From Marinomonas sp. THO17 (GTDB lineage Bacteria; Pseudomonadota; Gammaproteobacteria; Pseudomonadales; Marinomonadaceae), in the NCBI RefSeq assembly GCF_040436405.1, contig NZ_AP031575.1, forward strand, positions 3,275,501-3,339,500: a DNA stretch of 64,000 nucleotides. Reading direction: 5' to 3'. Both the position numbers and the translations under genes were made by a program. Below are positions 3,103 to 34,271 of the stretch, one piece after another. The notes below the pieces were generated by a model, which searched no databases, was not told the DNA's origin, and saw only the letters and a program-made list of their open reading frames with translations. Position 1 is the stretch's first letter. Each line of letters opens with the position of its first letter.

Positions 3103-4134
3103 ATGGCTCTTTACGTAAATACAAATACCTCATCAATCAATGCTCAGCGTCAGTTGATGAGTTCAAGTAATTCTTTGGATACGGCTTTCCAGCGTTTGTC
3201 TTCTGGCTTGCGTATTAACAGCGCAGCGGATGATGCAGCAGGCCTTCAGGTTTCTAACCGATTGACCTCTCAGGTTAATGGTTTGAACCAGGCGGTTCGT
3301 AACGCCAATGACGGTATTTCTGTTGCCCAGACTGCTGAAGGCGCTTTGGATGAGACAACGAACATGTTGCAGCGTATGCGTACTCTGTCTATTCAGTCAG
3401 CAAACGGTTCCAACTCGGATGATGACCGTAAAGCGCTACAGCAAGAAATCACGGCTTTGTCTACAGAGATTGACCGTATCGCTTCTGATACTACTTTCGG
3501 TGGACGTGCTTTGCTTGATGGTACTTACAATGGTGTTTACCAAGTAGGTGCAGACGCTAACCAAACGATCAGTTTTGACCTAAGTTCTGGTGATAACCAG
3601 GATTACGCCAGTAATGGTGGTTTTACTATGGCTGGTCTATCATCTAATGCTGCTGAAGAAGCAAAATATCAAGCAGAAGTAGACAGTTACGATGCACGTG
3701 TTGCAGAATATGAGTCAGCAAGAGCGGCAGCGGAAGAAAATGGTGATGAGTTTACAGCGACTCCACCTCAAATGCCTGAGCCGCCAGCAAGCCGCTCTAG
3801 AAGTTTCGGTGATACTTCTGAAGGCTTTGGAACACCATCTGTTACTTCAACTGAAAATGCGCAAAGTATGATTGCTATTTTGGATAACATGATTGCTGCA
3901 GTAGGTTCTAAGCGTGCTGAATTGGGTGCGATTCAAAACCGCCTTGGTTCAAGTATCAGTAACTTAAGTAATATTTCTGAAAACGTATCTGCTGCACGTT
4001 CTCGTGTTCGAGATGCGGATTTTGCAGAAGAAACTGCGAAACTAACCAGTTCGCAAATTCTGCAACAGGCAAGTTCATCTATTTTGGCTCAAGCTAATCA
4101 ACGTCCACAAACTGCGTTGTCTCTATTGGGTTAA
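3103..4134 (+). CDS. fliC: Flagellin (filament subunit)
   Basis: Structural subunit of the flagellar filament, exported through the flagellar type III apparatus. The conserved N-terminal D0/D1 region ([18 protein letters not shown], then [17 protein letters not shown]) and the C-terminal D1/D0 region ([20 protein letters not shown], ending QTALSLLG) are both intact. The 343 residues make a short flagellin. The central part, about residues 180-240, is an unusual charged Ala/Glu/Pro segment. Two ATGs lie in tandem; the second (3103) is 5 bases from AGGAGG at 3092-3097 and gives the usual MALYVNTN start. A sigma-28 promoter precedes it and a terminator follows, so it is probably a strongly expressed single-gene transcript. 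The adjoining Maf and Pse genes imply glycosylation on Ser/Thr. Confidence 0.95.
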
Positions 4135-4652: not shown

Positions 4653-6008
4653 ATGGCAATTGGCTCATTAGGTGCAGGCAGTGGAATGGATCTAGAAAGC
4701 CTTGTAACAGACATGGTGAGTGCCAGACGAGATACGAAAGTAAAATTATACCAAGACAAACTAGCAGGCTATGAAGCAGAGCTCTCTGCATTAGGGACAG
4801 TGGGCTCTGCTATTGATAATTTCAAAAATTATGTCAAAGATCTGAATAAAGAAGAACTTTTCTCCGGCCGAAATGTCATCATGGCAAATGGTGATGAAAC
4901 GCCATCATTTTCTGTTAACCCTGACAAAACCGCATCAACTGATGAATATTCTATTCAAGTTACTCAGTTGGCAAAAGGCAGCCGATTAATATCCGACATA
5001 TCTTCATTCTCATCTAGGGACGAAGTGGTGACGTCTTCCGGTGGTACGCTCACTTTATCAATAGGTGATGAAGAGTTTGAGATACAAGTAAAACCCGAAA
5101 CAACTTTGTCAGGATTGCGCGAACAAATTAATGCTGAAGGCAAAGACCATGGAGTCTCAGCCAACCTCGTAAATGATGGTGAAGGTCATACTTTCTTTAC
5201 CATTACCTCTAATACCACTGGAGCCGGCAATACCCTTCATATTGACAGTAGTAATTTAACGTTAGACAGTGCTGCGCTTGGCGGGTTCTTTCCAGGTATG
5301 AGTGTGCCAGAGGGAGGTGAAGCACAAGATGCTTATATTGTTGTCGACGGGATTTCAGTGCGCAGTGACTCAAATAGTTTTGATGATGCTATTGCTGGTT
5401 TATCAATAGAGGCATTGGAGCTTTCTCAGGAACCAGTAAAAGTAGAAGTGACCTATAATCAGGATCAAGTTAAAGAGACGATTCAAGGGTTCGTCAGCGC
5501 CTATAATGATTTAATTGCTGTTTTCAAACAAAGTACTGCCAGAGGTGCCGTTTTAAACGGTAATAGTATGATACGTAACTTAAGCAGTTCATTGGCAGGT
5601 GAGCTAATGTCTACTCACGCAAGTGATGATAGCCCGTTCACCTCGATTTTTGATGTTGGTGTTGATTTACAAGACAACGGTACCCTTGCGTTTGATGAAA
5701 ATAAGTTTAATCGTGCAGTGGATGCGGATTTTGACAGTGTTGCAACCCTATTTATTGGTCCAAATGGCCTAGCAAAATCTTTAGATGCTTTGTTAGATAA
5801 TTATGTTGGTCCCAGAGGGATGAATAATACCCTAAAGGATTCGGTGAATAAGTCGATAAGTGATACAGAAGAGTCACTTGCTGACTATGAAGAACGTATG
5901 GAAAAATATGAAGCATCTTTACGAAGTAAATTTACTAGTCTTGATACGCAACTAGCAAATATGAATGCTCAAGGTGACTATCTTAATTCTATGCTGAATA
6001 AACTTTAA
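4653..6008 (+). CDS. fliD: Flagellar filament cap protein FliD
   Basis: Filament cap (hook-associated protein 2), which folds incoming flagellin at the tip. The 451 residues fit the family. The N-terminal domain (LGAGSGMDLESLVTDMVSA) and the C-terminal helical domain, ending in a coiled coil and TQLANMNAQGDYLNSMLNKL, are typical of FliD N and C regions. The start has a GGGAG-like site about 8 bases upstream. It sits between flaG and fliS, the usual order. Confidence 0.95.
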   Translation: MAIGSLGAGSGMDLESLVTDMVSARRDTKVKLYQDKLAGYEAELSALGTVGSAIDNFKNYVKDLNKEELFSGRNVIMANGDETPSFSVNPDKTASTDEYSIQVTQLAKGSRLISDISSFSSRDEVVTSSGGTLTLSIGDEEFEIQVKPETTLSGLREQINAEGKDHGVSANLVNDGEGHTFFTITSNTTGAGNTLHIDSSNLTLDSAALGGFFPGMSVPEGGEAQDAYIVVDGISVRSDSNSFDDAIAGLSIEALELSQEPVKVEVTYNQDQVKETIQGFVSAYNDLIAVFKQSTARGAVLNGNSMIRNLSSSLAGELMSTHASDDSPFTSIFDVGVDLQDNGTLAFDENKFNRAVDADFDSVATLFIGPNGLAKSLDALLDNYVGPRGMNNTLKDSVNKSISDTEESLADYEERMEKYEASLRSKFTSLDTQLANMNAQGDYLNSMLNKL

Positions 6009-22893: not shown

Positions 22894-23721
22894 ATGGAAC
22901 TGAATCAGCGCTTATGGATGCTCGAATTGCTTGTTTATTGGGAAGGAAAGGTGAATACCACACCTTTGAGAAAAGTATTTGGCCTTAGTCGTCAAAGTGT
23001 CAGTACTTTAATAGGACGATACCTTGATCAATTTCCGGCGTCTCTGGAATACCATCCTGTAGAAAAAGCCTACCTGAGAACGACACACTTTGTTCCTCAT
23101 TACATTAATCAAACACTAGACGAGTATCTTGATTGGATGAATTTCGGCAAACTGCCAACGTCATTATTGTCTTCTCAAGACCCGACTCAATATCGTATCC
23201 AGCCTTTATCTCGCTATGTCTCGCCCGACATCATAAGGCCTATAATAAAAGCGGTGAAAAATAAAACAGCGATCGATTGCCAATACCTTTCGGTTTCCAG
23301 CGGAGAGGCTCAAGAGCGTCTCATCTACCCACATTCCTTCGTGAAAGCCGCCAATCGTTGGCATATTAGGGCTTACTGTGAATTGCGTCAGCAGTATTTG
23401 GACTTTGTATTGAGCCGCTTTCAACAGGTTGACTATGACGGTGCCGAAGCACAAATGACCATAGGGCAAGATGCCGCTTGGCATACCCAAGTTGAATTGA
23501 TATTAGCCCCAGATTTTCGATTAAATGCCGCGCAAAAAAAGGTGCTCGAAAAAGATTATGGTATGCAACAAGGTCAATTGAGCATTACAACACGCGCCGC
23601 CTTGGTGAAATACACCCTAGATGAATGGCAAATCAAAACCAAATTTGTCGAGGCCGATCCTCAAGCGCAGCAACTCATCTGTGTCAACTATGCCGACATA
23701 AAACAATGGTTTTACGACTGA
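22894..23721 (+). CDS. WYL-domain regulator, BrxR/CapW type
   Basis: A 275-residue predicted DNA-binding regulator. Residues 1-75 form a winged HTH (recognition helix near LSRQSVSTLIGRYL). Residues 120-180 form a WYL domain in which the name-giving motif reads RWHIRA (155-160), as in the BrxR/CapW group known to repress BREX and CBASS defence genes and to bind inverted repeats as dimers. A C-terminal WCX-like domain ends at 275. It lies 138 bases upstream of cas1 on the same strand and is not a core Cas protein. Control of the cas operon is my inference from position and family. Confidence 0.78.
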   Translation: MELNQRLWMLELLVYWEGKVNTTPLRKVFGLSRQSVSTLIGRYLDQFPASLEYHPVEKAYLRTTHFVPHYINQTLDEYLDWMNFGKLPTSLLSSQDPTQYRIQPLSRYVSPDIIRPIIKAVKNKTAIDCQYLSVSSGEAQERLIYPHSFVKAANRWHIRAYCELRQQYLDFVLSRFQQVDYDGAEAQMTIGQDAAWHTQVELILAPDFRLNAAQKKVLEKDYGMQQGQLSITTRAALVKYTLDEWQIKTKFVEADPQAQQLICVNYADIKQWFYD

Positions 23722-23724
23722 TAA

Positions 23725-23780
23725 CACACAGAGCAGTGTGATTTGTGTTTAGGTCTGTCAAATGACTTTACGTGTGTAAA
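23725..23780. promoter_or_regulatory. Candidate operators between WYL gene and cas1
   Basis: Two perfect inverted repeats lie in the short spacer before cas1: CACAC-6-GTGTG at 23725-23740 and TTTAC-4-GTAAA at 23767-23780. Dimeric WYL regulators of this type bind inverted repeats, so these are candidate sites for the neighbouring regulator. Neither is followed by a T run, so a terminator is less likely. No experimental consensus was used. Confidence 0.35.
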
Positions 23781-23859
23781 TTTACAGTGTTGTTAGAGGG
23801 AAAAAGGCGTGAGAGAGTGGCTTCAAGCTTAAACGCCAATGACCAAAAGAGGGAAATAC

Positions 23860-24867
23860 ATGGAACAGTTTTCACCATCGGATATGAAAACCATATTGCA
23901 TTCCAAACGTGCCAATATGTATTACCTTGAGTATTGCCGTGTGATGCAAAAAGACGGTCGAGTGCTGTATCTCACCGAGGCACTGTCTAATAAGAAGGCA
24001 GGAGAAAACCAGTATTACAACATCCCCATCGCTAACACCACAGTATTGCTGCTTGGTACAGGCACGTCCATCACCCAAGCTGCCATGCGGATGCTTTCTC
24101 AGGCGGGCGTGCTGGTGGGCTTTTGTGGCGGAGGTGGCACACCGCTTCATATGGCGAGTGAAGTCGAATGGCTAACACCGCAAAGCGAGTATCGCCCCAC
24201 TGAATACCTACAGGGTTGGCTGCAATTTTGGTTTGATGACGATAAGCGACTAGAAGCAGCCAAAACCTTTCAAAATGCACGCATTGGATACCTAGAGAAG
24301 ATCTGGAGTAAAGACAAAGACCTAAAAAATGAAGGCTTTTCAACCAAGGATTCTATGCTGATCGCGCCCTTTGAAACCTTCCATAAAAGAACCGAAGACG
24401 CGAAGAAACAATCCGATTTATTGCTAACAGAAGCGCAACTAACCAAAGTGCTTTATAAATACGCTGCTAACACCATGAATGTCGAAGGTTTTACCCGTCA
24501 GCATCAGGGTTCTACCAAATACAGCACAGACAAGGCCAACGACTTTTTAAATCACGGCAACTACCTTGCTTATGGACTGGCTGCGAGCTGTTTGTGGGTA
24601 CTCGGCATACCGCATGGCTTTGCTGTCATGCACGGCAAGACTCGGCGAGGGGCGCTGATATTTGATGTTGCCGATTTAATCAAAGACGCCATTGTATTGC
24701 CATGGGCCTTTGTTTGTGCCGCCGAAAACGCCACTGAACAAGAGTTTCGTCAACAGATACTGCAAAAATTTACCGATCATAAAGCCATGGACTTTATGTT
24801 CGACACCATCAAAGGCATTGCCTTACAGGACTACTCTTCAGAGCAAATTGAGGAGCAAAACCTATGA
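23860..24867 (+). CDS. cas1: Cas1, type I-F integrase
   Basis: Spacer integrase that works with the Cas2 part of the next gene. From ATG 23860 (335 residues) the protein begins [20 protein letters not shown], the standard I-F Cas1 start; AGAGGG lies 6 bases upstream, which favours this over ATG 23839. [11 protein letters not shown] is a family signature. The metal-binding His and Asp residues are visible as H258, D269 and D272; the catalytic Glu is probably E191 or E209. Its end overlaps cas2-cas3 by ATGA. It has higher GC than the effector genes that follow. Confidence 0.95.
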
Positions 24868-27800
24868 TGGTCACCTTTGTTAGCCAATGCGAAAAACGTG
24901 CTCTCAAAAAAACACGACGAGTGTTGGACGCATTTGCTAACCGCATTGGCGACAACACATGGCAAACCCTGATTACCGAAGAGGGTTTGATTACAGTAAA
25001 GAAAATGCTACGCCAAACCGCCAGCAAAAATACCGCTGTGAGTTGTCATTGGATACGCTCAAGATCGAGAAGCCAATTACTGTGGGTGGTGGGGAATAAA
25101 CGGAAATTTACTGAAGAAGGGATAGTGCCTGTTAATGTGACTCAGAAGGAAGTCGTAATGGATGTAATAACAAATAAGCCTAAAAATGGTGTTTTATACG
25201 CAAACACTCATTTACAACCATTGGTAGAGCATTTGTTCGCTGTTGGTTATGTAGCTGAAGCTCTCTATAAGATACTGTTTCCAACTTCAGGTAGAAATTA
25301 TGGTGACATCCATTTTTTTGCGGGAATATTTCATGATCTTGGCAAACTAGAACCTGAGTTTCAAAAATGGGTTAGAAGTCCAAAACAAAAGAATTATCTA
25401 GCGATTGATGGGCAACATATTGATAGTAAGTTCAGTTTTGATAAACATCCAAGGCACAATGAAGTCTCTCTCTTGTTGTATCACTTATTAGATTCACCAT
25501 CTTTAAATTTTGTAAATGACGCAAATAAGCGAACCATAAGACATGCAATTTATTGGCACCATGCTAGGCCTTATCGTAAGAAGCAAAGTGAATTTGATAC
25601 TTATTACTTAATAGCCAAAAAATTGATGGCGAATCTAAAAACTGACAATCTAAACGATTTAACTATGTCGGCTCAGAAGGCACTTAAACAGGTCGTCGCA
25701 ATTGATTGCATGTATAGAGAAATCGAGAGTTCAACTGCTTCAAAGAGTTATCTAGATGATGAAGTTGAGCAGAATATGGACAGGTTACCTGATGCGCCCA
25801 GACTGCCCGAATATAAAGTATATGAATCTGAAAATAAGGTAGGCAGTTATCAAAGAGCAATATCGACTAACGCATTCAATAACATTGCCCGTGCATGTGT
25901 GATCACAGCTGATCGGTTAATTTCATCATTAACGGCTAACGAACTACATCAAGCAATTGTTGATAAAACACTTTATCAATTGGTTGAAGATGTTACCGAA
26001 GTTGAGTCAACTTTAATCAGTGAAATAGCTCATTGTCTTAAAAACTTCCCAAATAGTGAACGCACTGCTAAACAAGCCGATATAGCAGATAAATTGGCGA
26101 AAACACCTGATGTTGCCATACTCGCGGGTGCCGCTGGCTGCGGGAAAACAAAAATCGCACTTGAGTGGGGAATGTTAAAAAATGCGAAAAAAATCATTTG
26201 GGTTTGCCCACGGGTACAAGTCTGCCAAGGTATTTTCACTGACCTTACATCAGATCAATATCTACCTAAGTCAACAATTGAAATAAATACAGGAGAATTT
26301 AAGTTTCACAATAAGTGGGGCAACATGCTGAATGAAGAGCAATATTTTTCAGGTGATATTGTTGTAACTACCATTGACCAGTTACTAGGGGCAGTGGTCA
26401 GTCATACCAAAGCTAATACTTTGATTGATTATTTAAATTCTCATGTAGTATTTGATGAATTCCATGAATATATCAATATGCCTGCATTCAATTTTCTGTT
26501 TGCTGAATTAGTTGAATGTAAAAAACAGCAAGAGACAAAAGCCAATACCTTATTGGTGTCTGCTACACCTCACTATGTTTATTGTGAACAGCTATTGGAT
26601 ATAGACAGAGAAGACATAATTACTATGCCTTCATTCAATCAAAGCAAATACCAACTCGATTTTAAACTGTTTGATGATGCGAAAATATCTCCAGAAAATC
26701 CGCTATTTTCTTCGCAAAAAGATAACACTTTTGTAATTAGTAATATGGCGCTTACTGCCCAGAATAGTTTTATCAATAACCAGCAAGAAAATTCAGTTCT
26801 ATTACATTCGAAGTTCATCAATAGTGATAAACAAAAGTACTTTGCAAAGGTTTATGAAAGTTTTAAGAAAAATGGTTCAAACAAGTATGAAGTATTACGC
26901 AGCGGTCCTATTGTTCAGGCATCATTAAACATAAGCTGCAACTATATGGTGGCAGAAATCAGCAATGCAGAAAACACTTTACAGCGTTTAGGTCGACTAG
27001 ACCGTTTTGGTCAAAATAGCCAAACGAATATTTATTGTTTGGCTGTTCCAATGATGGTTTCGAAGCCTAAAGGTAGCAGCCAAGCAACCCGTTTTTTATC
27101 CAAAATGTATTCGTTAAGCTCAACTCGGGCTTGGTATCAGTGTTTACTTGAACATATTGGAGACAGAGAGTTTACCTTGCCAGAAATTTATGAATTGTAT
27201 GAAAAGCAATTCCATAAAAATGACATTTACAAAAAATTGATCGAAAGTGACTTATTAGCTGCCTTGAGCCAGAGTGTGCAAACAATAAATGCAAAAGTAC
27301 TAGAGCCAATAGTGATGCAGAAAACCAAAGCCGCCGATAAGAACCGAGCTAAAGTAAGTAAAAATTCATTGCGAGGCGAAAATAGGTTCGTGCAAATGGC
27401 GGTTTGCGATGTAACGGATGTAAGTAAGCCAATTTTTGAAGAAACTCAATACGCTTATAGTATGCCTCTAGATGATACTACCGAAGTCGATAACTTAACT
27501 TTTTCGGTTTCGGCAATTACAGGTTATGGCAAAAGCGATCAAAACCTGCTTAATCACATGTTTAAAAAGCATCACAACGTGATGGGTGGAGATAAACCAT
27601 ATAACGATAACTTGTTACTAAACCAAGCGCGTGATCCTGAATTACCTATTTACTTGAGTTATACCACAAGAGACTTAGTCTCAGTGGGTGGTGAATCAGC
27701 AAGACACTCACATGCCATTTATTACATGGTGTGTGATAAACAACCAATTGGCGCAATGTCGCTAAAACAACTTAATACAACCGCAGAAGATGAGGAATAA
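24864..27800 (+). CDS. cas3: Cas2-Cas3 fusion nuclease-helicase, type I-F
   Basis: Target-degrading enzyme that also supplies Cas2 for spacer integration. Order: Cas2-like domain (about residues 1-90), HD nuclease with [16 protein letters not shown] (H157, D158) and YWHHARP, then an SF2 helicase with Walker [10 protein letters not shown] near 424, a DEFH box (VFDEFHEYI) near 530, SATPH near 566 and [11 protein letters not shown] near 706. At 978 residues it is somewhat short for the I-F family (often above 1,050 from memory). The Cas2 part is GC-richer than the rest. A 3-base gap separates it from cas7fv. Confidence 0.94.
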
Positions 27801-27803
27801 ATC

Positions 27804-28808
27804 ATGGAAAAAGTAACTGGAATTAAAAGCGTTGATTTTAAAATTACAGCTTTAGGGCATGGTGTGGTGAATTGGAATGGGTCTCCAAACTTAACAATTA
27901 TCAAAGATGATAAATTCAAAAATATAACAAATCATTCGATGCCTAAGCTACGAGGATATACCAATGTTAAGGAGTTTAATGACGATGGAACGGCTAAATT
28001 CTATAAGCACCCAGAAGAAATTAACTTAAATGATGTTGAACTATACATCAGTCAAAATTGCATCAGGCATCATTTATTTCGTGGAGAGCATTACAACTTA
28101 AATTCTCCACAGTTAGAAAATAATATAATTAAGCTACTGTGCTCAATTACTGGTTTAGTGCGTGGGTATGTTAACCCTAAAAATGAAAACAAGCGCACAA
28201 GTCCTCTATTGTTAACGGATTTTGTTGATCAACTCGGTAATGGGAATTTTGAACAAATGGGACGTTCTGGAAGTAAAGAAAAAGAAACAAGTAAGTCAGG
28301 TAAAGATTCGAGCAATTCACTCTTTTCTAAGTTGACCTTTGGAGATACGAAATATCTAGCTTATGGTTCAATTAGTATTGAACAACTTCAGTTTATTCCA
28401 TTGTGCGCTGATTTTGGTCGTGAGTCGATGAAGATCAATAACCATAAAGAAGGTCAGGAAGTCGCTGAACAACTGTCAAGCTATCTTAAGAAACTATCTG
28501 GTAACTCAGAAACAAAAGCTGTTTATCATGAAAATTATGTGAGAGTAGGCTCCATATTTGATGAGGGTGAAGCAGGCATTTTACTAAATGATTCCGCGAT
28601 AGATGTATTAGTAACGCAGACAATTGAATTGGTAAAAAATTTAACTATCAGGCAAGCCAAGGGCTATATGTATGTTGATGAGGTATTGGTAGATTACAAC
28701 GATAGTCAAGTAGCCAAGAATATGTTTCGTATAAAAACTAGCCATGAGCAAGAAATTAAACAAAATAAAGGCTCTCAATCATATGCTGTTTATTATCAAG
28801 GTAAATAG
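27804..28808 (+). CDS. cas7fv: Cas7fv backbone subunit, type I-F2
   Basis: Predicted crRNA-binding backbone protein of the minimal I-F2 effector. It is 334 residues and occupies the position that Cas7fv holds between cas3 and cas5fv in the Shewanella putrefaciens locus. Primary sequence shows no classical motif I can cite; TRVKLxx-type features of I-F1 Csy3 are not obvious. The Ser/Lys-rich loop about residues 155-170 may be the flexible thumb or web. The call relies on gene order, length and a high-confidence cas1, cas2-cas3 and cas6f around it. The segment is distinctly AT-rich. Confidence 0.8.
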   Translation: MEKVTGIKSVDFKITALGHGVVNWNGSPNLTIIKDDKFKNITNHSMPKLRGYTNVKEFNDDGTAKFYKHPEEINLNDVELYISQNCIRHHLFRGEHYNLNSPQLENNIIKLLCSITGLVRGYVNPKNENKRTSPLLLTDFVDQLGNGNFEQMGRSGSKEKETSKSGKDSSNSLFSKLTFGDTKYLAYGSISIEQLQFIPLCADFGRESMKINNHKEGQEVAEQLSSYLKKLSGNSETKAVYHENYVRVGSIFDEGEAGILLNDSAIDVLVTQTIELVKNLTIRQAKGYMYVDEVLVDYNDSQVAKNMFRIKTSHEQEIKQNKGSQSYAVYYQGK

Positions 28809-28810
28809 TT

Positions 28811-30127
28811 ATGAGGATTACAATTGAATTTGACTCGTGTTGGCAAACTGGGTTTCTTGGTGATGATCCTAAGAAAAAGTTTGATTTGAAAAATAATGCG
28901 GCCACGTATTCTAAGGGAGACTTTGAAGGAAAAACCAAAAAGAACTTTCACGAATCAAGTGGCTATGAACAAAAATTTGTTGCTACCTCAGGGACTCGAG
29001 GAGAAAAGCCGACCCCTATTTCTAAAAGCACTATTTTGGGGGTGTTGTGTAGGCTGATTGGTGACCAAAGGCCACTATGGAAAGCTAGGCAAAGTTCTAA
29101 TTATTATTTTTCTGACATAGAAGACAGAATATTAGAGCCTATTATAGAGCGGGATGCTCAAGAGGTTAGTGAACTAGTCTATTTAACAAATAAATCGGAT
29201 GCTCGTTGCGCTCAGCAAGGGTATCTAGGTGTGCTAAACGATGACAATCCTTGGTTTTTTTCCGAGGAAGCTAAGCATTTATGGTCAGTTCTTTATTTGA
29301 ATAAAGAGCAGTTAATTCAATTTGTGGAAAACGGCAAACCTAATGAGCCACTTGAAAACAGTGACTTGTGTAAACCAACTGCATTAATAAATCGAATTAA
29401 TCTTATTTCTGATTCAAAGTCTGAGTTAGGTGCTTTGATTAGAACTAATGAAAGGCTACAACGTGATCAAATATTGGATATTAGTAAAAAGGCAAGTTTG
29501 CTATCTGACCACAATGATAAAATCAAGTTAAAACCTTCAAAAACCAAGGCTCATAAACTAAAAAATGACCAAAAACTAACTCAGCTTACGAATGAATTGT
29601 CTGAAGCAAAATCATACCTTGATCAATTGAAAATTGATTCACTCAGTGAGTTCGAGACTACTTTAAATTCGGTAACTCAATTTTTATCTGATAAATATCC
29701 AAATGATAAAAAAAGAGGAGAGGAATATTGTAAAGATGGATTGATCTATCCGATGTCTCTATATGCAGCTGCTTTGCATTTGCAGGCTGAGCGTCTATCA
29801 GAAATGGGACTAGATTTGCTGTTTGCTTATAACTCAAAACAAGAGATTCAAATTCAAGGGTTTTCGAAAGCAGGCTTTAATGGCATAAGAGACTGGTTGA
29901 ATAGAATGGCTGGAGGACGGAAAAAAGCTGTTGGTACCCCATGTAATATTCAAAAGCACTCAGGTCGGTTAGAAATTGAAATTGGTTTAAACAATGATGA
30001 TTATGGCCGTGAATTTCCTGAATTAACTCGTTCTCAAGAAATTATAAAACTCATTGAACATGCAGGTGTATCCAGTTTTTACCTTGGTAAAAAAGGATTG
30101 GCTTATGTTTCTAAAATACGGTCATAA
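28811..30127 (+). CDS. cas5fv: Cas5fv subunit, type I-F2
   Basis: Predicted subunit that caps the 5' handle and, in the characterised I-F2 complex, also recognises the PAM in place of the missing large subunit Cas8f. 438 residues. Early region holds TSGTRGEKPTPISKSTILG and the later region FSKAGFNGIRDWLNRMAGG. Residues of about 222-310 are Lys/Glu/Leu-rich and strongly helical, perhaps a coiled coil. The call rests on order between cas7fv and cas6f and the absence of any cas8. It could include an accessory domain fused to Cas5. Confidence 0.75.
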   Translation: MRITIEFDSCWQTGFLGDDPKKKFDLKNNAATYSKGDFEGKTKKNFHESSGYEQKFVATSGTRGEKPTPISKSTILGVLCRLIGDQRPLWKARQSSNYYFSDIEDRILEPIIERDAQEVSELVYLTNKSDARCAQQGYLGVLNDDNPWFFSEEAKHLWSVLYLNKEQLIQFVENGKPNEPLENSDLCKPTALINRINLISDSKSELGALIRTNERLQRDQILDISKKASLLSDHNDKIKLKPSKTKAHKLKNDQKLTQLTNELSEAKSYLDQLKIDSLSEFETTLNSVTQFLSDKYPNDKKRGEEYCKDGLIYPMSLYAAALHLQAERLSEMGLDLLFAYNSKQEIQIQGFSKAGFNGIRDWLNRMAGGRKKAVGTPCNIQKHSGRLEIEIGLNNDDYGREFPELTRSQEIIKLIEHAGVSSFYLGKKGLAYVSKIRS

Positions 30128-30138
30128 GGAGAATAAAT

Positions 30139-30693
30139 ATGGATCATTACTGTGATATTCGTATCAAACCTGATGCGGAAATGCGTGAAAATGTATTGCT
30201 AAATAAGGTTTATACAAAATTTCATAAAGCTCTGTGTGACCTTTCTTCTAAATCAGTTGGTGTAAGCTTTCCAGAGACAAAGCTGAAGCTCGGAAAGGTG
30301 TTGAGAGTTCATTCAAGCCAATCCAATTTAAAAGCACTGAAAGAAATGAACTGGCTTGGAGGGTTAATTAGTTATTGTGAATACAGTGAAGTGCAAACAA
30401 TTCCTGAGAACGTAGAGCATCGGACAGTTTCTCGTTGGCGACCAAACATGACTGAATCACACCTAAGACGACTTATAAAGCGTAGGTCTATTTCTGAAGA
30501 CGAAATTAAGGCTTATCGAGCGAAAATGTACGCAGCTCAGCTTACTACTTTGCCATATTTAGAGTTAGAGAGTACGGGGAGCGGGCAGCTATATAGGCGT
30601 TATATTCAAGTATCCGACCCTGTTCATCAAGCGGTAGGTGGTGACTTTGATCAATTTGGTTTAAGTAAAAAAGCTACAATACCTTGGTTTTAA
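30139..30693 (+). CDS. cas6f: Cas6f (Csy4) crRNA endoribonuclease
   Basis: Cuts each repeat at the base of its hairpin and stays bound to the 3' stem. The 184 residues align well by eye with Pseudomonas Csy4: it starts MDHYCDIRIKPDAEMREN, has the catalytic His at position 29 (KFHKAL), the arginine-rich RNA helix SHLRRLIKRRSISEDE, a GSGQLYRRYI region for the Ser pair, and ends PWF. AAGGAG precedes the ATG. It is the last cas gene, 130 bases before the first repeat. Confidence 0.95.
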   Translation: MDHYCDIRIKPDAEMRENVLLNKVYTKFHKALCDLSSKSVGVSFPETKLKLGKVLRVHSSQSNLKALKEMNWLGGLISYCEYSEVQTIPENVEHRTVSRWRPNMTESHLRRLIKRRSISEDEIKAYRAKMYAAQLTTLPYLELESTGSGQLYRRYIQVSDPVHQAVGGDFDQFGLSKKATIPWF

Positions 30694-30823: not shown

Positions 30824-33800
30824 GTTAGCCGCCGCACACGCGGCTTAGAAATATAATTGTTTTAGGGACTTCCTGACCCCTTTGTTAGCCGCCGCACACG
30901 CGGCTTAGAAATAAACATAATTATCTCAATTTTTCATTTCACAGTTAGCCGCCGCACACGCGGCTTAGAAATGAATGGCGGCACAGCCCTAGGTAATAGA
31001 TAGGTTAGCCGCCGCACACGCGGCTTAGAAATTTTTGATACGTGGTAACAAAGTTTTTTTCATGTTAGCCGCCGCACACGCGGCTTAGAAAATTAATGAT
31101 TGAATTGCCCCATTCATTCCTTTGTTAGCCGCCGCACACGCGGCTTAGAAAGTTTAAGTCCGTAATCAATGCATCTATGTATCGTTAGCCGCCGCACACG
31201 CGGCTTAGAAATATCTAAGCGCCATGTTTAGCACCTTAATCAAGTTAGCCGCCGCACACGCGGCTTAGAAAATACTGTGGGTAATAACTTAATGAAGTTC
31301 CTGGTTAGCCGCCGCACACGCGGCTTAGAAATGTCTAACACCCGTGCCATTCGTCACCTACCCGTTAGCCGCCGCACACGCGGCTTAGAAAATGATTACG
31401 AAGCTTTTGAAACCAACCAATGTGTTAGCCGCCGCACACGCGGCTTAGAAATTATGGTCTGCGGTTTGCTGGTTGTTGTGGTGGTTAGCCGCCGCACACG
31501 CGGCTTAGAAATCGATGCGCAGATGCCAGAGCTTAAAGACTTCGTTAGCCGCCGCACACGCGGCTTAGAAATTTTATAGTTTTATCAATCCTTATCTCCA
31601 CTGGTTAGCCGCCGCACACGCGGCTTAGAAAACACAAAACAGGAAATAAAAGAGCCCTCCGCGGTTAGCCGCCGCACACGCGGCTTAGAAATGAAAGACC
31701 AGAGCTTACACTTGGTAAGATTCGTTAGCCGCCGCACACGCGGCTTAGAAATTTCTTCGATTGGCAGGCTTTTTATGATGGCAGTTAGCCGCCGCACACG
31801 CGGCTTAGAAATCTTAGTGTTGATCTGAGTGATTTTGATCAAGGTTAGCCGCCGCACACGCGGCTTAGAAATATTATTGTTTGTCAAATCAACAAAAAGT
31901 TGTGTTAGCCGCCGCACACGCGGCTTAGAAAGCTAAGTGGATTGCAACAACCGTGATTGGCGGGTTAGCCGCCGCACACGCGGCTTAGAAATGATACATC
32001 ATCAAATGGGGTAGGCTCCAATGGTTAGCCGCCGCACACGCGGCTTAGAAATCAATTATAAATTATTGGAGTGAATTATGTTTGTTAGCCGCCGCACACG
32101 CGGCTTAGAAATTTTCTCTGCAAAATATTCGCTGTGATTTGGTGTTAGCCGCCGCACACGCGGCTTAGAAAAGAAACGTGGATTAATGATGTATGTGGAA
32201 TTGGTTAGCCGCCGCATACGCGGCTTAGAAAATAATTCGCTTCTGACTTTGCTTCTCTCATCAGTTAGCCGCCGCACACGCGGCTTAGAAATGTAGGTAT
32301 GCTACTTCGTCAATCTCACCGATGTTAGCCGCCGCACACGCGGCTTAGAAAATGTCTTTAATCCACTGCTCTTTGATCTCACGGTTAGCCGCCGCACACG
32401 CGGCTTAGAAATTATCCAAGCCGTGCGTCTGTACCAAACCCAAGTTAGCCGCCGCACACGCGGCTTAGAAAAAGTGAGGTGACCTATGAGTTTTTTTGAC
32501 ACTGTTAGCCGCCGCACACGCGGCTTAGAAAACTAGAAGAAAACCTTTTAGCTGAATCAGATAGTTAGCCGCCGCACACGCGGCTTAGAAAAATCAGCGA
32601 AAAACCACCCATCGACGTTCGCGGTTAGCCGCCGCACACGCGGCTTAGAAATTCCGGTCTGCCCCCTTTTCGACCTCTGGCTCGTTAGCCGCTGCACACG
32701 CGGCTTAGAAAAAGTCCGAATGGCGCAAGCAAAGCTGCTAAAAGTTAGCCGCTGCACACGCGGCTTAGAAAAATCGGTGCTGTGGCGGCGGCTGTTGGTT
32801 TACGTTAGCCGCTGCACACGCGGCTTAGAAACCAACACTCACCACCAATAATGGCACCCAATGCGTTAGCCGCTGCACACGCGGCTTAGAAAATGAAAGC
32901 GGCGCAAGAGAAACAAGGTAGATGTTAGCCGCTGCACACGCGGCTTAGAAATCTTCATCTAAGCAGTGGTTTTTCATCCTGTCGTTAGCCGCCGCACACG
33001 CGGCTTAGAAATTGCAGTGTGACCAAGCCGCCAAAGTACGCACGTTGGCCGCCGTACACGCGGCTTAGAAACAACAAAACAGGGGGAGCCGTGGGGCTTT
33101 CTTGTTAGCCGCCGCACACGCGGCTTAGAAATTTGAAGTAGGCTCGTTTAATGTAGTTAGTGAGTTAGCCGCCGCACACGCGGCTTAGAAAAGATATGCG
33201 GCTGAGTTAAGTCGCCATACAGCGTTAGCCGCCGCACACGCGGCTTAGAAAACATTTGCACTGACTGCCGCTTCTCCCTTGTTGTTAGCCGCTGCACACG
33301 CGGCTTAGAAATCAATACAAAACGCAAAGAATAGTTTTTCATTGTTAGCCGCTGCACACGCGGCTTAGAAAAACAGCTTCAAGTCTTAATGCCAGGTGAA
33401 ATTGTTAGCCGCTGCACACGCGGCTTAGAAATGCATCAGTGCCAGCACCGGCCTCAGCGACAAGTTAGCCGCTGCACACGCGGCTTAGAAAGCCCAGCGC
33501 GCCATGGCTCGTAACCTAAGCGAGTTAGCCGCTGCACACGCGGCTTAGAAAACAGCGGCCGATGCCAAAAAAACCAAAGGAGAGTTAGCCGCTGCACACG
33601 CGGCTTAGAAATTTCGGATCAAATTTAATAGTGCTCATGCTCTGTTAGCCGCCGCACACGCGGCTTAGAAAGTTTACATGGCCATGCGGAACGCCTCGGG
33701 TCGATTAGCCGCCGCACACGCGGCTTAGAAATATAACCAGTGTCCGATGATGCCGTGGATCGAGTTAGCCGCTGCACACGCGGCTTAGAAAACACTTTGC

Positions 33801-34271
33801 CAGCTTCATTAATGCAGATTTCAGTTAGCCGCCGCACACGCGGCTTAGAAAGTAACCTTATCCCAGTTTTGATACAGCAATATGTTAGCCGCCGCACACG
33901 CGGCTTAGAAAACCAAGCTTTATGAAAGCATCACTATTGGTTGGTTAGCCGCTGCACACGCGGCTTAGAAAGTGAGCAACGCCTTCGATGTACTCCAAAA
34001 GCTGTTAGCCGCCGCACACGCGGCTTAGAAAGATCATCACATCAATATCGCGGCCTGAAATTCGTTAGCCGCCGCACACGCGGCTTAGAAAACATGAAAA
34101 TAATCTGTCATACTGTCTGATTCGTTAGCCACCGCACACGCGGCTTAGAAAACTCAATGGCTCGCTGGCCTCAACATCAAACGGTTAGCCGCCGCACACG
34201 CGGCTTAGAAAATCCACCAATATTGCGGGTTATTTTCTACAAAGTTAGCCGCCGCACACGCGGCTTAGCAA
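30824..34271 (+). CRISPR. Type I-F CRISPR array, 58 repeats, 57 spacers
   Basis: The 28-bp repeat starts GTTAGCCGCC and ends GCGGCTTAGAAA. It recurs every 60 bases, with 32-base spacers; one repeat at 32865 is shifted by one base, giving neighbours of 33 and 31. A 6-bp stem AGCCGC/GCGGCT fits Cas6f cutting, leaving the canonical 8-nt handle CTTAGAAA. The last repeat (34244) has A26C, marking the distal end. Thirteen copies from 32684 onward carry C10T; single changes occur at 32204, 33044, 33704 and 34124. No duplicate spacer was seen in the first 30; the rest were not compared systematically. Confidence 0.98.

Follow-up and report, generated by a model that had tools for sequence, protein, structure and literature searches.

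How do cells avoid the cost of CRISPR-Cas and time its activation? To our knowledge, the answer is unknown for most CRISPR types. A locus in Marinomonas sp. THO17 raises the question in concrete form, as a gene for a WYL-domain protein lies there directly ahead of a type I-F2 cas operon. The window analyzed here is a stretch of 64,000 nucleotides from contig NZ_AP031575.1 (GCF_040436405.1), and all coordinates are positions in the window unless a locus is named. A first-pass annotation, made from the letters alone, had proposed that the protein is a repressor of the BrxR/CapW type and that it could control the cas genes through two perfect inverted repeats between the two genes.

The WYL gene is an intact open reading frame on the plus strand at 22894-23721, encoding a 275-aa protein of wHTH-WYL-WCX architecture with the motif RWHIRA at residues 155-160. 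The first-pass annotation had placed its start correctly but let the span run to 23859, which is the last base before cas1; the reading frame stops at 23721. The protein has a Pfam WYL domain match (1.7e-12), and in phmmer its best match by sequence among solved structures is the Acinetobacter BrxR 7t8k (E=5.7e-48, residues 5-270), followed by three CapW-type proteins and the BrxR of E. fergusonii; two CapW matched at 7e-37 and 2.2e-31 over nearly full length. With a 53-row profile, BrxR scored 7.9e-82. We built an AF2 monomer model from 53 sequences (pLDDT 89.5), and in a fold search ranks 1-15 of its PDB matches were all BrxR/CapW, while PafBC and DriD were much weaker matches (E about 1e-6 vs 1e-23 for BrxR/CapW). 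The TM-scores of the model against its PDB matches were low, about 0.5-0.6 with large rmsd, probably owing to a different placement of the domains in the monomer model, and the assignment is based on E-values and sequence. Single residues agree with it: R33-Q34 is invariant in the alignment and matches SRQQ, the DNA-contacting motif of BrxR (PMC9122589), and six of the eight CapW pocket residues named in PMC9122588 are kept (Y131, S133, R155, H157, F171 and R175), the altered two being W156 and R183, which are R142 and L169 here. By architecture, closest relatives, DNA-contact residues and pocket residues, sequence and fold confirm that the protein is a member of the BrxR/CapW family, as the first-pass annotation had it.

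From the WYL stop it is 138 nt to the cas1 ATG at 23860, on the same strand. The operon, all on the plus strand, consists of cas1f (23860-24867, PADLOC Cas1fv 2.3e-179, with an alternative in-frame ATG at 23839), cas2-3 in its I-F2 form (24864-27800, PADLOC Cas3fv 1478 bits), cas7fv (27804-28808, NCBIfam NF040577 475 bits against a cut-off of 200), cas5fv (28811-30127, 438 aa, PADLOC Cas5fv 1.6e-82) and cas6f (30139-30693, Pfam Cas_Csy4 6.9e-53). It is followed by a CRISPR array at 30824-34271, the end being computed from the copy number, with about 58 repeats of GTTAGCCGCCGCACACGCGGCTTAGAAA at 60-nt spacing. This gene set, which lacks a large subunit, and the array with its 60-nt period agree with the earlier call of type I-F2 (I-Fv). 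Cas5fv is longer here than in three congeners (438 aa vs 335-339 aa); the extra length resembles a coiled-coil stretch in the helical domain, and the Pfam Cas5fv_helical model matches in two pieces.

We surveyed 50 Marinomonas genomes for the WYL gene (G and L numbers are our own labels for genomes and loci). A close relative is present in 21 of them: the window itself, 17 intact copies at 51-65%, two intact copies at 33-35%, and an interrupted copy in G049. All 21 copies, the 20 intact ones and the broken one in G049, immediately precede a cas operon, though in two cases another gene intervenes. Type I Cas1 was found in 25 of the 50 genomes, four of which (G011, G022, G023 and G032) lack the WYL gene, and we found no intact WYL copy in any cas-less genome among the 50. 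The naive hypergeometric probability of this co-occurrence is near 1e-9 to 1e-10, a figure that serves only as a guide given that the genomes are related. Neither a lack of co-occurrence with cas nor an intact copy in strains without cas genes, the two outcomes that the first-pass annotation had named as speaking against the coupling, was seen in the genus.

The scope that had been given to the coupling, an inducible control layer for I-F2, proved wrong. Only 4/21 of the Marinomonas partners are I-F2, the others being I-F1 (12/21) and I-E (5/21). Outside the genus, we examined 13 I-F2 loci, including 3 plasmids, and such a WYL gene is directly upstream of cas in only two of them. The genus, order and plasmid surveys together led us to reject an I-F2-specific partnership and the WYL gene as a general I-F2 component.

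In the window, the WYL gene, the cas genes and the array lie between a methyltransferase gene and an MFS transporter gene. In G028, G039 and G005, which carry the methyltransferases most similar to that of the window (73-77%), the site is empty: aat, the methyltransferase, the MFS transporter and an Lrp-type gene are present with no WYL or cas genes between. We rejected the methyltransferase as a part of the module, as it is found in 35/50 genomes with or without cas. The WYL-cas unit occupies other chromosomal sites in five further genomes (G004, G015, G026, G003 and G044), which means that the linkage does not stem from a single locus.

If the protein controls cas, where would it act? Both inverted repeats between the WYL gene and cas1 exist as first reported, each with arms of only 5 bp, which is weak evidence on its own, and their fates as candidate operators differ. 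The repeat at 23725-23740 (plus strand, CACAC-N6-GTGTG) is not conserved, since the spacer that holds it has 0/40 invariant columns among 19 congeneric loci, and we rejected it as an operator. It resembles a terminator only at chance level (1 found, 1.2 expected) and probably reflects either chance or a weak hairpin after the WYL gene. The second repeat, at 23767-23780 (plus strand, TTTAC-GTGT-GTAAA), proved to be the core of a larger conserved element, and its AC.TGT and AAA are invariant in the genus. This element is a 39-bp block, TCTGTCAAATGACTTTACGTGTGTAAATTTACAGTGTTG, at 23754-23792 on the plus strand, conserved across the genus and a putative WYL operator before cas. It also holds a perfect 12-bp palindrome, TGTAAATTTACA (23775-23786, plus strand), which is longer than either of the two repeats, was absent from the first-pass annotation and has exact copies in G020 and G009.

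Among the 19 congeneric loci, the block has a mean pairwise identity of 0.80, vs 0.46 and 0.47 in its two 40-nt flanks, and 22/39 invariant columns, vs 0/40 and 1/40 there; the loci were aligned on the block ends, which slightly favours conservation in those columns. Identity between I-E and I-F loci is 0.80 as well, equal to the overall value. In two more WYL-cas loci of the genus the block has diverged. It begins 23 or 33 nt past the WYL stop in 17/19 loci, and in the remaining two it sits before cas1 after an insert. None of the four type I cas operons without WYL in the genus has the block, nor do two more loci, in G046 and G020, that encode long Cas1 fusion proteins. Allowing up to 3 mismatches, we found no second copy elsewhere in its own genome and rejected a wider regulon. 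The best axis of dyad symmetry scores 3.73, within the column-permutation null (95% limit 3.80), and we do not claim strong symmetry for the block. We found no convincing sigma-70 promoter around it.

Several loci in the genus show the unit incomplete. In G032 (L085), the I-F1 operon lacks both the WYL gene and the block but is otherwise 64-92% like its relatives, and a truncated RhuM/KilA-like gene lies directly before cas1, a natural joint loss of regulator and operator. G017 (L097, oriented position 3108) has kept the block and the cas leader without WYL or cas genes, and these now precede what look like genes for type I restriction-modification subunits. In G016 (L091, 11774-13000), a split WYL gene lies beside decayed I-F-like repeats without cas genes, and the regulator seems to decay there once CRISPR-Cas is gone.

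Beyond the genus, the WYL gene lies directly before cas in 16/42 further loci of an order-level survey, with I-F1 (7), I-F2 (2), I-E (5) and I-C (2) as partners, one of the two I-C assignments being made by PADLOC and the other by matching gene sizes. The same linkage is also found in other families. For the 68 next-best relatives (35-39%), most of them from Pseudomonas and Vibrionaceae, we fetched flanks of up to 10 kb, and these hold no cas genes of type I-C, I-E or I-F. A core of the block, AC.TGT-N8..11-CAG, follows the WYL stop in 12/17 order-level loci labelled cas-linked, compared with 1/22 of the other loci and 0.18% in shuffles; the expression was chosen after the blocks had been seen, and these counts are descriptive. 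At L276 there is only a short cas1-like piece.

BrxR and CapW are reported to have a palindromic operator in the promoter of their own gene, a position on which kinship does not depend. In the co-oriented cas-linked loci here, there is no core element within 300 nt upstream of WYL, and we rejected an autoregulatory copy of the element before the WYL gene in these loci. In 15 of the 68 distant cas-less relatives, almost all Vibrionaceae, the core does occur, on the strand opposite to the matched WYL region and some 70-90 nt ahead of it. The simplest reading of these sequences is that the core would be the WYL protein's own operator, moved from the promoter of the regulator to that of cas. At L282 (11205-14780) and L283 (13527-16644), I-E-like cas operons are divergent from the WYL gene, and in L282 the core element lies in the intergenic region between the two, which illustrates how one site could serve both.

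The CRISPR type behind the regulator has changed repeatedly. On a tree of 78 WYL proteins, cas linkage is clustered, with 4 changes vs 25.9 in shuffles (L255 and L267, which have a divergent I-E-like operon, were not counted as cas-less). CRISPR type among the co-oriented cas-linked rows requires 15 changes vs a shuffled mean of 14.6, so WYL kinship predicts type no better than chance; several long branches of the tree were flagged, and single placements are unreliable. The breakpoints are visible in pairs of genomes. Between G006 (M. arctica, I-F2) and G034 (M. rhodophyticola, I-E), identity is 95% over the stretch from -5456 to +75 relative to the WYL stop and homology ends there; in other I-E/I-F pairs it ends at +76 to +98. 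The block itself ends at +71, or at +61 in loci where it starts at 23, and I-E and I-F loci cease to be homologous 4-27 bp beyond it. Pairs of I-F1 and I-F2 loci are mostly alike through cas1, to about +1.3-1.5 kb. Exchange thus took place either immediately after the putative operator or after the adaptation gene that the loci share. In G044 (L054, oriented 5021-5461), a 146-aa cas1f remnant lies between the WYL gene and the I-E operon, as if I-E had replaced I-F behind the same regulator.

We think it likely, with real room for doubt, that a dedicated CRISPR repressor, which single-stranded DNA releases from its operator, forms with that operator a stable socket behind which cas cassettes are exchanged. 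The WYL protein would be a homodimeric transcription factor of the BrxR/CapW family dedicated to CRISPR-Cas, and we infer that it binds the block just downstream of its own gene, which would hold down the promoter of the cas operon behind. Single-stranded DNA from phage replication or DNA damage would then fill the WYL/WCX pocket, the filled protein would leave the block, and cas expression would rise. The cassette behind the operator would be swapped among I-F1, I-F2 and I-E, and in related families also I-C, with the breakpoint just after the operator. Repression and the inducer are proposed by analogy: CapW is a repressor, and the rise in expression upon phage infection depends on it (PMC9122588); CapW/BrxR are further stated to repress until ssDNA binds (PMC13373217, citing a 2024 paper). 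PDB 9c5g, among the fold matches of our model, is CapW with ssDNA. Several findings count against this reading: the WYL gene is missing from four congeners that have type I cas genes; the co-oriented cas-linked loci have no element before WYL itself, unlike BrxR/CapW; and the block has no convincing sigma-70 promoter around it, symmetry within the null and a lexA-like form in 12/21 cases. As for the broader proposal, that a BrxR/CapW group is a type-blind CRISPR master switch in gammaproteobacteria, with a shifted operator, exchange of types I-C, I-E, I-F1 and I-F2, and induction by ssDNA or infection, we consider the case evenly balanced.

Other explanations have to be weighed against the repressor. 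The protein could be an activator of cas like PafBC and DriD, recruiting RNA polymerase to a promoter that lacks a good -35. The missing sigma-70 consensus at the block would fit, the distal element CAGnnT could act as a poor -10, and PafBC and DriD, which are WYL activators of DNA-damage genes, are among the weaker structural matches of the model. However, the repressors BrxR and CapW are its nearest relatives in both sequence and fold, the activators match far more weakly by the fold-search E-values given above, and G032 keeps an otherwise full I-F1 operon without the gene and the block; we regard an activator as unlikely.

Still less probable, in our view, is a reading of the block as a LexA (SOS) box, with the WYL gene as an incidental neighbour. 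LexA could act at the genus blocks, because 12/21 hold exactly CTGT-N8-ACAG, as does the box that precedes lexA in the THO17 genome. In the window, however, 23771-23786 reads GTGT-N8-ACAG, which differs from the exact LexA/SOS box, eight other genus loci also deviate from it, and both outer bases vary outside the genus. The conserved stretch also reaches well beyond 16 bp, there is no block at cas operons where WYL is absent, and variants such as GTGT-N9-CAG occur at the WYL genes of cas-less Vibrionaceae. We give equally little credence to hitchhiking, in which the WYL gene and block would mark the conserved border of a recombination hot spot and would not regulate cas. They do lie exactly at the cassette-exchange breakpoint, and recombination can homogenise an edge, but the linkage is the same at the other sites in the five genomes listed above and in other families, WYL is broken or missing where cas is gone (G016 and G017), and a passive edge leaves the similar element before cas-less WYL genes unexplained.

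The proposed CRISPR repressor resembles known systems and departs from each of them. The BrxR of Acinetobacter type I BREX (PDB 7t8k/7t8l; PMC9122589) has the same full-length wHTH-WYL-WCX architecture, is 33% identical in the structural alignment, and shares the R-Q of SRQQ and the RWH.RAYC core. Its own gene is the first of the BREX operon, and the 25-bp pseudo-palindrome that it binds lies upstream of that gene. Here, the putative site follows the WYL gene and immediately precedes cas, and CRISPR-Cas takes the place of BREX as partner. CapW of CBASS (PDB 7tb5, 7tb6, 9c5g; PMC9122588) shares the architecture, the histidine that replaces the WYL tyrosine and most of the pocket, apart from the two residues described above, but adjoins an abortive infection system, whereas the WYL gene here adjoins adaptive immunity. 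Sll7009 of Synechocystis and WYL1 of Cas13d systems (named in PMC9122589 and PMC9122588) are likewise WYL-domain proteins tied to CRISPR-Cas, with other types and partners.

An association of BrxR homologues with CRISPR-Cas is already known: in a defence-island survey, 21/210 systems downstream of BrxR homologues (10%) are CRISPR-Cas (PMC9122601), and we found in that report no description of a CRISPR-dedicated clade, a shared or moved operator or type exchange. In M. mediterranea MMB-1 (PMC8523701), methyltransferase and WYL genes have also been noted ahead of the I-F operon, in the same gene order, and RNA-seq showed a gene immediately upstream of cas to be co-regulated with it; that work concerns PpoS/PpoR and CsrA, not the WYL protein. 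In the open-access literature that we searched, we found no description of a CRISPR-dedicated BrxR group, a shared or moved operator, or type exchange behind it. One regulator family and one short DNA element before four CRISPR types predict a common inducer and common wiring, and offer a mechanism for the turnover of CRISPR types at a fixed locus, in which an incoming operon would land behind an existing regulated promoter. If true, this would tie adaptive immunity to the ssDNA-sensing control reported for BREX and CBASS.

We also made some minor observations on the regulator and its surroundings. Two different wHTH segments are found on nearly identical WYL proteins, for example those of L003 and L011 (residues 22-60), which suggests recombination of the DNA-reading part of the protein. 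In four congeners (L036, L037, L039 and L044), RhuM/KilA-like genes of 241-352 aa lie between the methyltransferase and WYL genes. In G030 (L043, 5246-6200) and G041 (L038, 5721-6700), WYL and cas1 are separated by an inserted DinD/BRO-like gene, which is followed by a duplicated WYL 3' end, and the block is found only at the copy that adjoins cas1.
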